The notes under the pieces: model-generated
Told to the model about the DNA's origin: nothing
Database searches by the model: none
The model's input: only the letters and a program-made list of their open reading frames with translations
Assembly (NCBI GenBank): GCA_016794945.1
Contig: JAEUIX010000028.1
Coordinates: 1 to 7,800, forward strand
Length of the DNA: 7,800 nucleotides
Source: Phycisphaerae bacterium
Lineage (GTDB): Bacteria > Planctomycetota > Phycisphaerae > Phycisphaerales > UBA1924
Direction of reading: 5' to 3'
Position numbers and translations under genes: made by a program
Shown: positions 5,540 through 7,800 of the stretch, piece after piece
Position numbering within the stretch: the first letter of the stretch is position 1
Layout of the letters: every line of letters begins with the position of its first letter

Positions 5540-5566
5540 TGGACGGGGACGGGGATCCCGTATAAA
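5540..5566 (+). promoter_or_regulatory. Weak candidate promoter for the nusA leader or small RNA
   Basis: TATAAA (5561-5566) matches the -10 box at 5 of 6 and is the only AT-rich patch for a long way. TGGACG (5540-5545) matches the -35 at 4 of 6, but the 15-base spacer is short. Transcription would start near 5573 and run through the hairpin array. The same AT patch could serve the divergent STAS gene. Confidence 0.3.
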
Positions 5567-5572
5567 CTCCCT

Positions 5573-5871
5573 ACGGACAACCGGTGTTTCACGTGGCAGA
5601 TTCGATTCGCGGAACGCACGCATGACCAGCGACCGTCATCATGCTGTCTGACCTCACGACGAGGCCGGCGGCTGCGCTGTGCAGACCCGGGCACCGGGAT
5701 CTGGCCCAAGGAAGGGGCCGGAGACCCGGCGGTACGGGTCGTGAGTTCCGCGGGAGCGGCTCGGGCGGAAGGAGGCCGATGGCCTGACCCCCACGCTCGA
5801 TCGGTCGCCGGCTCGGAGCCGGCGGCGTTGGAAGGCCACGGAGCATCGGCGACCGTGGCCTTGTTGTTTTT
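5573..5871 (+). ncRNA. Structured RNA upstream of nusA: leader/attenuator or separate small RNA
   Basis: No convincing gene lies between 5470 and 5940. From 5672 on, the + strand shows consecutive small hairpins. These are CTGC/GCAG (5672-5684), CCCGG/CCGGG (5686-5698), GGCCC/GGGCC (5703-5719), GACCCG/CGGGTC (5723-5740), TTCCGC/GCGGAA (5746-5770), AGGCC/GGCCT (5773-5785) and GCCGGCT/AGCCGGC (5807-5823). Last comes an intrinsic terminator at 5832-5871. Two sets of alternative pairings are possible: TGGCCT (5780-5785) can pair with AGGCCA in the terminator's left arm, and CGCCGGC (5806-5812) can pair with 5664-5670 instead of its neighbour. This could be a transcription attenuator for nusA or an independent small RNA. 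I compared it by memory with RNase P, SRP, tmRNA and common riboswitches and found no match. The 5' end is a guess. Confidence 0.45.
5832..5871 (+). terminator. Intrinsic terminator upstream of nusA
   Basis: A perfect 10-bp stem, AAGGCCACGG (5832-5841) with CCGTGGCCTT (5853-5862), has an 11-base loop and is followed by GTTGTTTTT. This is the best intrinsic terminator in the window. It lies 69 bases before the nusA start and faces nusA, so it either ends a separate transcript or controls read-through into nusA-infB. Confidence 0.85.
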
Positions 5872-5873
5872 GG

Positions 5874-5891
5874 GGCCGCCGCGCGGCGGCC
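5874..5891. other. 18-base perfect palindrome after the terminator
   Basis: GGCCGCCGCGCGGCGGCC (5874-5891) is a perfect inverted repeat with no central gap. In RNA it would be a 7-bp hairpin with a GCGC loop directly behind the terminator's T tract; in DNA it could be a dyad for a regulator. It lies 49 bases before nusA. Confidence 0.6.
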
Positions 5892-5930
5892 GTCAGATTC
5901 GGATCGGATAACCAGACAACGCGACAACTC

Positions 5931-5934
5931 GGAG
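5931..5934 (+). promoter_or_regulatory. Ribosome binding site of nusA
   Basis: GGAG lies 6 bases before the ATG at 5941. It fixes the nusA start and contrasts with dsbD and the STAS gene, which have no visible site. Confidence 0.8.
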
Positions 5935-5940
5935 ATCGGA

Positions 5941-7275
5941 ATGAACACGGCAGAGATGATGCGGATCCTGGACTCGATCGCCCGCGACCGGAAGCTGGAC
6001 AAGCAGTCGCTGGTAAAGGTGCTGGAGCGTGCGATGGTCTCGGCGGCGCGGAAGCACTTCAACACGCTGGACACCGAGGAGTTCCGGTGCGAGCTCGATC
6101 CGCTGACGGGTCAGATGCAGTTGTTCCGGCACAACGAACCCATGAACCTGTCGCCGGAGGACCTGGGGCGGATCGCGGGGCAGACGTTCAAGCAGGTGAT
6201 GATCCAGGGGTTCCGCGACGATGAGCGGACCACGATGCTGAACGAGTACAGCAAGCGGGTCGGGGAGATCGTGACGGGGGTGGTTCAGCGGTACGACGGG
6301 GGCGCGCTGGTGGTGACGATCGACCGTGCCGAGGCGTTCATGCCGCGGAGCGAGCAGATTCCGGGGGAGCAGTTCCAGCCTGGGGACCGTGTGCGGTGCC
6401 TGGTGCTGGACGTTCGGGACGCCGGGAACCAGGTGAAGATCGTGCTGTCGCGCGGGCACCCGGACTTCATCAAGCGGCTGTTCGAGGTGGAGGTGCCGGA
6501 GGTGGCGGAGAAGATCATCGACATCAAGGCGATGGCCCGGGAGGCGGGGTACCGGACGAAGATCGCGGTGGCGAGCGTGGACAGCAAGGTGGACCCGGTG
6601 GGCGCGTGCGTGGGCGTGCGCGGGAGCCGGATCAAGAACATCGTGGACGAGCTGAACGGGGAGAAGATCGACATCGTCCGGTGGAACGAGTCGAGCCAGA
6701 TCCTGATCGCCAACGCGCTGAAGCCGGCGGAGGTTGCGGAGATCAGCCTGTGCTTCGAGCTGGGGCGTGCGACGGTGGTGGTGCGGGACGACCAGCTGAG
6801 CCTGGCGATCGGCAAGCGCGGGCAGAACGTACGGCTGGCGGCGCGGCTGACCGGCTGGGACGTGGACATCCTGACCCCGGACGAGTTCAACAAGGGCCTG
6901 GAGATCATGACCTCGACGCTGAGCGGCGTGGAGGGGATCAGCGAGGAGCACCTGGACAAGCTGGCGGCGCTGGGGATGGTGAGCGTGTTCGACGTGGAGG
7001 AGGTCGGCGCCGAGGTGCTGATGAACGAACTGGGCGTCAGCGACGAGGTGGCCAAGCGGGTGGTGGAGACCGCCAGCGTGAAGGCCAAGGAGGTCGCCGA
7101 GACGCAGCAGAAGGAGAAGGAGGCCGCGGAGCAGCGCAAGCGCGAGGAAGAGGCGGCGGCGCGGCGGCTTCTGGAGTCGGGCGCATCGCCGCTGGCCGAG
7201 GGCACGGGCCCCGCGTTGGGCGTGAGCGACGATGCGCGGGCGGCGGACATCCTGGGGCAGGCTCCGGCGCAGTGA
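5941..7275 (+). CDS. nusA: Transcription termination/antitermination factor NusA
   Basis: NusA binds RNA polymerase and nascent RNA, promotes pausing and intrinsic termination, and takes part in antitermination. The 444-residue protein has the standard order. An RNA-polymerase-binding N-terminal domain (about 1-105) is followed by an S1 domain (about 108-180, GEIVTGVVQRYDGGALVV). KH1 has its G-x-x-G loop at 225-228 (GVRG) and KH2 at 291-294 (GKRG, in AIGKRGQNVRLAARLTGW). After KH2 comes one helix-hairpin-helix-like unit (about 325-378, EGISEEHLDKLAALGM and following). Then there is a highly charged helix (about 380-410, QQKEKEAAEQRKREEEAAARR) and a short tail. E. coli NusA has two acidic repeats after KH2; only one similar unit is seen here. 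The gene is followed by infB, the usual partner, but rimP, often upstream, is absent. Confidence 0.97.
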   Translation: MNTAEMMRILDSIARDRKLDKQSLVKVLERAMVSAARKHFNTLDTEEFRCELDPLTGQMQLFRHNEPMNLSPEDLGRIAGQTFKQVMIQGFRDDERTTMLNEYSKRVGEIVTGVVQRYDGGALVVTIDRAEAFMPRSEQIPGEQFQPGDRVRCLVLDVRDAGNQVKIVLSRGHPDFIKRLFEVEVPEVAEKIIDIKAMAREAGYRTKIAVASVDSKVDPVGACVGVRGSRIKNIVDELNGEKIDIVRWNESSQILIANALKPAEVAEISLCFELGRATVVVRDDQLSLAIGKRGQNVRLAARLTGWDVDILTPDEFNKGLEIMTSTLSGVEGISEEHLDKLAALGMVSVFDVEEVGAEVLMNELGVSDEVAKRVVETASVKAKEVAETQQKEKEAAEQRKREEEAAARRLLESGASPLAEGTGPALGVSDDARAADILGQAPAQ

Positions 7276-7363: not shown

Positions 7364-7800
7364 TTGGCTAAGCGCAGACTCGGCGAAATCGCGAAGGAAC
7401 TGAACGTCCCGGTGAAGGCGATCATCGACAAGTGCCTGGCGGAGGAGATCCCCGCCGACACGGTCAAGACGCACGCGTCGATGATCTCGGCGGGACTCGA
7501 GGCGACGATCCGCGAGTGGTTCAGCGACGCCGCGTCGGGCACGGCGGTCGAGACGAAGGAGCACGTCGACGTCACCAAGGTCCGGGCGGTGGCCAAGCCG
7601 GCCAAGAGCCGGGCGAAGAAGGCGGGCGGGGGCGATGCCGAGGCGTCGACGGCGGTGGCCGAGCCGCCGGCGCACGCGCGGCCGGACGGGGTGGAAGCTC
7701 CCGAGCGAGTGGAGGCCAGACCGGCGTCGAAGCCCGCCAGGCCGGCGGCACCGGCGGTTGCGCCGGCGCCGGCAGCGCCCGCAGCACCCGTGGCGCCCGC
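7364..7800 (+). CDS. infB: Translation initiation factor IF-2, N-terminal part (3' end outside window)
   Basis: IF-2 is the GTPase that brings initiator tRNA to the ribosome; its GTPase core lies beyond the window. The 145 visible codons start at TTG 7364 and contain no stop. Residues 1-55, beginning AKRRLGEIAKELNVPVKAII, are the small IF-2 N-terminal domain. After a short helix (LEATIREWFSDAA) follows a long Ala/Pro/Lys-rich linker from about residue 65, ending in alanine-proline repeats (APAVAPAPAAPAAP). Such variable linkers are normal in IF-2. The position after nusA supports the identification. The start codon is rare, but a well-placed GGAG precedes it. Confidence 0.93.
   Translation, partial: MAKRRLGEIAKELNVPVKAIIDKCLAEEIPADTVKTHASMISAGLEATIREWFSDAASGTAVETKEHVDVTKVRAVAKPAKSRAKKAGGGDAEASTAVAEPPAHARPDGVEAPERVEARPASKPARPAAPAVAPAPAAPAAPVAP

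Follow-up and report, generated by a model that had tools for sequence, protein, structure and literature searches.

The window, that is, the whole 7,800-nt stretch of DNA analysed here, carries in this order argH, a tRNA-Gly gene, a gene for a DsbD-like protein, fliM, a gene for a STAS protein (minus strand), a leader region, nusA and the start of infB (Table 1). The window is planctomycete, the nearest relatives of the encoded NusA having been found on Phycisphaerales contigs, with 81% identity in the best segment. RimP_N was found in none of 11 planctomycete genomes searched (G001-G006, G008, G040, G054, G187 and G191) and in 10 of 14 control genomes with the same search, and the operon therefore seems to start with nusA. 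A simple promoter scan returned no promoter for the leader; the best -35 match to the TATAAA at 5561-5566 was 4/6 at 15-nt spacing, and A/T-rich hexamers were seen by eye at similar places in relatives. Running ARAGORN on the window gave no tRNA or tmRNA in the leader, the tRNA-Gly lying elsewhere. Between argH and this tRNA gene, a hairpin (AAGGCCCCGGT..ACCGGGGCCTT, 1791-1819) resembles a two-way terminator.

Table 1. Coordinates of the leader elements and of the genes that follow them
Feature	Coordinates	Strand	Basis
-10-like TATAAA, tentative leader promoter	5561..5566	+	sequence; no good -35
uORF1, 9 codons, MTSDRHHAV-stop	5622..5651	+	length enrichment; SD-like site upstream
uORF2, 48 codons, ATG overlapping uORF1 as ATG-N5-TGA, stop identical to minigene stop	5641..5787	+	
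Hairpin enclosing Shine-Dalgarno and two-codon ORF	5761..5798	+	predicted fold, -19.1 kcal/mol
Shine-Dalgarno AAGGAGG of two-codon ORF	5769..5775	+	sequence; anti-SD duplex -11.7 kcal/mol
Two-codon ORF ATG-GCC-TGA	5779..5787	+	length enrichment, all three stops
Middle hairpin	5804..5826	+	predicted fold
Terminator hairpin facing nusA	5832..5862	+	AAGGCCACGG, 11-nt loop, CCGTGGCCTT; covariation
Interrupted U-tract TTGTTGTTTTT	5861..5871	+	sequence; similar interrupted T-rich tails in relatives
Two ACAAC copies between terminator and nusA	5916..5928	+	sequence
nusA	5941..7275	+	Pfam NusA_N, S1, KH_5
infB (IF2), start only	7364..7798	+	Pfam IF2_N, E 1.2e-4, 22.2 bits, under curated cut-off 25.3

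Leaders were compared in several sets. The main set comprised 80 loci minus one in which the nusA start lay off the contig (L068), together with the window, giving 80 leaders; adding loci L081-L095 gave a set of 95, and a set of 89 with near copies removed was used for the uORF2 statistics. An independent Phycisphaerales set was obtained by fetching 40 more leaders, of which 9 were repeats and 29 of the other 31 were left after removal of near copies. Searches for DNA similarity across the 80 loci recovered 7/80 with nhmmer and mainly the start of nusA with blastn, and statistics on codon length were more productive for comparing leaders.

A sequence-only reading of this region had placed an intrinsic terminator in front of nusA, and the hairpin and tail given in Table 1 bear this out. 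The hairpin ends 78 nt before nusA and was missed by a simple terminator scan, probably because its 11-nt loop exceeds the 8 nt that the scan permits. Of the 70 leaders with a chosen minigene (69 relatives and the window), 69 had a hairpin followed by a T-rich tail, the exception being L050; a few of these hairpins are doubtful (e.g. L038). From the 69, near copies and doubtful cases were excluded and 44 hairpins including that of the window were aligned, with stems mostly of the G[AG][CT]C[AG]CG type in the relatives and AAGGCCACGG..CCGTGGCCTT in the window. Covariation in relatives had been proposed as a check, and compensatory changes were observed at 8 of the 9 stem pairs; 92.2% of the alignment cells were paired as compared with 34-42% after sliding, and two-sided changes occurred in 54 cells versus 15 in the shuffled alignment. 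With a stricter rule, terminator-like hairpins preceded nusA in 26/58 relatives (those of the 79 that passed the gene finder for this comparison) and other genes on the same contigs in 2/122 cases. By a strict rule, terminators were present in only 14 of the 29 new Phycisphaerales leaders, versus 1.9 in shuffled sequences. Judging from these comparisons, the predicted terminator facing nusA is real and conserved through compensatory changes.

The distance from terminator to nusA was at most 40 nt in 5/69 loci, with a minimum of 32 nt, which leaves scant room for a second promoter. This bears on the idea of a stand-alone RNA, small or dual-function, that stops at the terminator while nusA is expressed from a promoter of its own; a separate small RNA had been named as the other possibility in the sequence-only reading. 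Such an RNA would fit the conserved terminator stem, but the gap of as little as 32 nt and the presence of terminators before nusA in many orders speak against it; we found no support for a separate RNA and consider it highly improbable. The attenuator of nusA that had been suggested first emerges as the most probable reading, given the covarying hairpin, its enrichment before nusA (26/58 versus 2/122) and its closeness to the gene in 5/69 loci, and attenuation of nusA by the leader is likely.

The rest of the leader turned out differently from what had been described. The earlier reading saw an array of seven separate small hairpins, but the minimum-free-energy fold of 5573-5880 is branched with long-range pairing, and instead of a hairpin array the leader holds short ORFs with the appearance of being translated, which were absent from that reading. 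The leader was more stable than 100 dinucleotide shuffles (z = -3.08), as was the opposite strand (z = -3.65), so that little can be read from stability alone. When 8 relatives from one clade were folded to a consensus, a hairpin enclosing the Shine-Dalgarno sequence and the two-codon ORF was again predicted, and single-sequence folds of many relatives had, by eye, some hairpin between the minigene and the terminator.

Two alternative pairings had also been proposed. The complementary pieces were placed correctly (TGGCCT at 5780-5785 with AGGCCA at 5833-5838; CGCCGGC at 5806-5812 with GCCGGCGGC at 5664-5672 and 5818-5826), but the general comparison of leaders gave no sign that the pairings are conserved. 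The complementarity of the left arm of the terminator to upstream sequence had a z of -0.48 ± 0.12 relative to shuffles (right arm 0.02; 69 loci) and of -0.26 ± 0.13 across loci (right arm 0.12; 59 loci). By eye, the minigene start looked well matched to the left arm in a few loci with a GTG start and gave an A-C mismatch in many of those with ATG. A putative antiterminator is thus weakly supported by the sequences compared.

As for known RNA families, Rfam includes a rimP-leader model. The proposed Rfam search gave no match above chance in the leader among 4227 families (the only match had E 4.2), and 20 further leaders had no match at E 0.5. A covariance model (R1) was built from 8 sequences that belong to one clade. 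In genome G003 it gave a single strong match, located before nusA (E 2.3e-28; next match 0.057), but in the 16 other genomes searched it recovered none of the nusA leaders; among 46 sources its matches came mainly from its own clade. Since R1 missed the leaders in 16 genomes, further copies of the leader might exist elsewhere. Downstream of the terminator, at least two ACA[A/T]C copies were present in 41/68 regions upstream of nusA and in 5/138 regions upstream of other genes, and (G)ACAAC/ACATC repeats in 16/29 new Phycisphaerales leaders and 1/19 leaders of the order of genome G187. These repeats might be a candidate RNA-binding array, for example for NusA.

The window carries, at 5769-5787, a Shine-Dalgarno sequence followed by ATG-NNN-stop, the pattern of a two-codon minigene such as lambda bar, and this pattern is kept in relatives. 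An ATG ORF of exactly two codons was present in 58 of the 80 leaders of the main set versus 10.7 expected, and in 23 of the 29 independent Phycisphaerales leaders versus 2.0 expected (maximum of 100 shuffles 5). For most other lengths the counts of ATG ORFs in the 80 leaders were near chance, the exceptions being two and nine codons; ORFs of 14, 15, 21, 22 and 24 codons were also raised about twofold, and ORFs of 13 codons were found in 8 of the 29 independent leaders versus 1.6. On the same contigs, ATG-NNN-stop was found in 39/58 nusA leaders and in 10/122 leaders of other genes.

Each of the three stop codons was enriched after ATG-NNN in the 95 leaders (TGA 52 versus 7.3, TAA 9 versus 1.6, TAG 8 versus 1.8), as were certain other triplets (GCT 23 versus 6.7, GGT 19 versus 7.6, CGC 24 versus 13.5). 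Conversely, ATG was the triplet most raised before NNN-stop (68 versus 10.3), with lesser excesses of ACA (25 versus 9.5), GCT (21 versus 9.5) and GTG (23 versus 13.4). The separate enrichment of three stops and of ATG indicates a pattern of translation and not a fixed RNA motif, and from this codon pattern we infer that the two-codon minigene is probably translated.

With candidates picked by position and Shine-Dalgarno sequence, a minigene was listed in 70/80 leaders, two of them (L014 and L077) without a clear Shine-Dalgarno sequence. The 10 leaders without the pattern were L001, L007, L019, L032, L042, L043, L045, L049, L057 and L064, of which L045 and L064 seem by eye to have CTG-TAG and TTG-TAG, respectively. 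By eye, start-NNN-stop was present in 10 of the 11 leaders L081-L091, and 6 of the 29 independent leaders had no ATG ORF of two codons. Among 89 loci the starts were ATG in 76, GTG in 9, CTG in 2 and TTG in 2 and the stops TGA in 67, TAG in 14 and TAA in 8, the search pattern having admitted only these four starts and three stops. The second codon represented 14 amino acids in the 89 loci, so that selection seems to act on position and not on the peptide. In the window the minigene stop is separated by 44 nt from the terminator and by 153 nt from nusA, a distance at which direct coupling to nusA is unlikely.

It could be argued that ATG-NNN-stop is not translated and serves as an RNA motif or a protein-binding site, in keeping with its location within a hairpin predicted for the window and for one clade. 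The enrichment of TGA, TAA and TAG alike, the variation of the start codon (ATG 76, GTG 9, CTG 2 and TTG 2 of 89) and the one-codon versions in the order of G187 described below make this scarcely credible. Two variants of the segment were seen in individual loci: a tandem duplication of the Shine-Dalgarno sequence with ATG-ACC-TGA in L018, the copies lying some 377 and 296 nt ahead of nusA, and by eye a three-codon version, ATG-GCC-GAY-stop, in L092, L093 and L094.

Two longer ORFs, uORF1 and uORF2, start upstream of the minigene. Nine-codon ATG ORFs were present in 33 of the 80 leaders versus 9.2 expected and in 8 of the 29 leaders of the independent set versus 1.7 (maximum 6). The ATG of uORF2 was placed exactly as ATG-N5-stop from an upstream stop in 49/89 leaders versus 1.3 (maximum 4), and this N5 spacing was found in 48 of 53 overlapping uORF pairs. 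An ATG uORF2 of 15-60 codons shared its stop with the minigene in 63/89 leaders as compared with 27.2 in shuffled sequences (maximum 36), and the two wrong-frame controls gave 8 and 5. Overlap of uORF2 with the minigene out of frame was in moderate excess (24/89 versus 14.7, maximum 22); a shared stop or such an overlap was found in 79/89 leaders versus 37.8 (maximum 47), and the remaining 10 had no ATG uORF2. The initial idea of a minigene alone was revised accordingly, uORF2 usually ending on the minigene stop.

The Shine-Dalgarno sequences of the three ORFs differ. In 46 loci, anti-SD sites of -4 kcal/mol or better were found for 40 uORF1, 4 uORF2 and all 46 minigene starts, against a background of 31%, and the mean energies were -6.3, -1.8 and -8.5 kcal/mol, respectively; in the window the SD-like site of uORF1 is weak (-3.5 kcal/mol). 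The count for uORF1 is biased upward, as 15 of the 46 starts had no nine-codon frame and were chosen by the best Shine-Dalgarno match, and so is that for the minigene, whose set was partly picked with this feature, while the low count for uORF2 is free of such bias. The pattern fits loading of ribosomes at uORF1, a coupled start of uORF2 and a fresh, strong start at the minigene.

The sizes of uORF1 and uORF2 are those of leader peptides, as in a classical ribosome-stalling attenuator in which one of them would sense an amino acid or a ribosome-targeting drug, and codon 7 was His in 21 of 41 nine-codon ORFs. This His looks, however, like a by-product of the next frame: codon 7 was CAT, GAT or AAT in 32/41, which creates an ATG in that frame. 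Among 35 loci with the next-frame ATG (near copies included), the ORF beginning there shared its stop with the minigene in 29, and in the other 6 it ran into the minigene start with an ATGA or TGATG overlap. We therefore dropped a conserved His codon in uORF1 as a candidate feature, the conserved letters being the ATG of the next frame. We likewise set aside a +1 frameshift that would lead from uORF1 into uORF2, as the last codon of uORF1 varies and the ATG is mostly kept. Stalling is further opposed by the uORF peptides inspected, in which no run of a single codon was seen by eye, by the variable length (17-48 codons) and sequence of uORF2, and by the 14 amino acids represented by the second minigene codon across 89 loci. 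Taken together, a stalling attenuator appears improbable.

A minimal ORF of another length was found in the order of genome G187, which is presumably Pirellulales. In 16 of 20 newly fetched leaders of this order (near copies included) a one-codon ORF, ATG-stop, was present. After near copies were removed from the 32 leaders formed by these 20 and 12 earlier ones, 19 were left, of which 15 contained ATG-stop versus 2.8 expected (maximum 7); ATG-TAG had first been noticed in some of the 12 earlier leaders, which are thus not independent of the idea. All three stops contributed (TAG 6 versus 0.46, TAA 5 versus 0.51, TGA 4 versus 1.48) and two-codon ORFs were at chance (3 versus 2.6). A GTGGG..CCC stem with a T run was present in 15/19 of the leaders, and under the strict rule terminators were found in 9/19 versus 1.5 in shuffled sequences. 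ATG-stop and the terminator stem were found together in 13 leaders; in 12 of these ATG-stop came first, at a distance of 102-139 nt, and in L222 it lay 54 nt downstream of the terminator. We found no longer ORF regularly sharing the stop of ATG-stop in this order, which makes the minimal ORF the common element. The ORF length is thus held at exactly two codons in one planctomycete lineage and exactly one in another.

In other planctomycete orders, terminators were found by the same strict rule in 32 of 50 nusA leaders versus 3.6 in shuffled sequences, and minimal ORFs were within the range of the shuffles (one codon, 6 versus 5.9; two codons, 11 versus 5.8, maximum 13); some nusA leaders of other orders contained little beyond a promoter and a GTGGG..CCCAC terminator. 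The terminators without minimal ORFs speak for regulation of the operon by NusA alone, in which a NusA-dependent terminator with interrupted U-tract would itself be the sensor and the short ORFs would only hold ribosomes on the leader, or shield it from Rho, and release the ribosomes ahead of the terminator. Feedback by NusA has been proposed for the rimP-leader (PMC2965389), and by analogy with it the autoregulation by NusA put forward in the sequence-only reading is plausible, given that the bare promoter-terminator leaders of the other orders resemble the rimP-leader as described there. The exact length of two codons or one, the strong Shine-Dalgarno sequence and the exact N5 overlap are left unexplained by NusA alone, which we consider a rather unlikely account of the leader.

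The reading that we prefer, with about equal shares of belief and doubt, is that the leader is a transcription attenuator of nusA-infB read by ribosomes via a relay of short ORFs. We have high confidence in the anatomy as predicted from the sequence (terminator, ORFs, their lengths and overlaps, and the Shine-Dalgarno pattern), whereas that the ORFs are translated and ribosomes re-initiate, that there is a switch, which way control runs and what signal is sensed are inferred. A ribosome would load at uORF1, terminate after 9 codons and re-initiate on the overlapping AUG of uORF2, which lacks a Shine-Dalgarno sequence. It would then read uORF2 to its end at the strong Shine-Dalgarno sequence and AUG-X-stop. 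A ribosome terminating on the minigene would have a strong Shine-Dalgarno sequence close behind and an AUG no more than two codons away; it could restart and so idle at a fixed spot, which in the order of G187 would be the AUG-stop. The position of the ribosome on the leader, or its absence, at the time RNA polymerase synthesizes the terminator would decide whether the terminator folds, and NusA would then strengthen termination. The switch step is the weak point of this mechanism.

Given that ribosomes would initiate or re-initiate at each step of the relay, the quantity measured would likely be the capacity for initiation (IF2, initiator tRNA), and as the operon encodes NusA and IF2 a feedback loop would close. 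That the leader senses initiation capacity is a reasoned proposal, which draws on the products of the operon and the nature of the ORFs. The leader might represent a new kind of attenuator, whose sensor would be an ORF too short for a regulatory peptide. In it, a ribosome fed by the relay and parked on SD-AUG-X-stop or AUG-stop would gauge the capacity for initiation or re-initiation (IF2, initiator tRNA, recycling) and thereby control how much the NusA/IF2 operon is transcribed. There is little that ORFs of one or two codons could signal apart from initiation, termination and recycling, and for this reason what the leader senses is testable by changes of start, stop and Shine-Dalgarno sequence. 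In nearly all bacteria the nusA-infB operon connects transcription with translation, and the leader might be a built-in gauge by which the cell tunes its own translation and transcription machinery. A literature search found no published report of such a leader, and to our knowledge no transcription attenuator has been described before in which a minimal ORF is conserved across a bacterial class; this would be the first.

The trp, his and ilv operons are preceded by ribosome-mediated attenuators, in which a leader ORF is followed by a terminator before the operon. Unlike in these, a regulatory codon run was not found in the leader peptides inspected by eye, and the final ORF here seems too short for stalling on a chosen codon. 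The order of leader ORF, terminator and operon is nevertheless the same as in these systems and in the ribosome-mediated attenuator of ilvB1 in M. tuberculosis as described in the account cited (PMC13236596).

Two-codon minigenes in leaders are described singly, in axe-txe (mg2) and EHEC LEE1, in the text drawn on here (PMC8708949), and share with the window a Shine-Dalgarno sequence and ATG-NNN-stop upstream of the regulated gene. As presented in that text, mg2 affects the translation of a gene only 15 nt away (PMC8708949), whereas the minigene of the window is 153 nt from nusA and before a terminator; in addition, the two-codon length is kept in most Phycisphaerae leaders examined and the stop is usually common to a longer uORF. 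A eukaryotic start-stop uORF is that of Arabidopsis NIP5;1, which responds to boron and in which, as in the order of G187, an AUG directly before a stop forms a regulatory ORF (PMC5972666, in the part used here). ORFs of this type are described there as acting by eukaryotic re-initiation, stalling or mRNA decay (PMC5972666), whereas the present ones are bacterial and combined with a Shine-Dalgarno sequence and a terminator.

The rimP-leader, termed the most ubiquitous attenuator, consists of a terminator with GGGc..gCCC before rimP-nusA-infB, for which feedback by NusA was argued, NusA being only a proposed sensed factor (Naville and Gautheret 2010, PMC2965389); the portions of that paper used here describe only the terminator and, in several Gammaproteobacteria, a tandem terminator. 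Like it, the window has a predicted intrinsic terminator in the leader of an NusA/IF2 operon, and a GGG..CCC stem is found in many leaders of other planctomycete orders. The window differs from the rimP-leader so described in that its stem (GGCCACGG..CCGTGGCC) lacks the GGGc..gCCC motif, in that nusA directly follows the leader, rimP having been found in 0/11 planctomycete genomes, and in that a short-ORF relay precedes the terminator. In E. coli, the metY-rimP-nusA-infB operon begins with an initiator tRNA gene and has terminators upstream of rimP, as far as the source drawn on describes it (PMC6511841). The two operons have in common the core genes, the upstream terminators and a link to initiation; where the E. 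coli leader contains a tRNA gene (PMC6511841), the planctomycete leader contains short ORFs.
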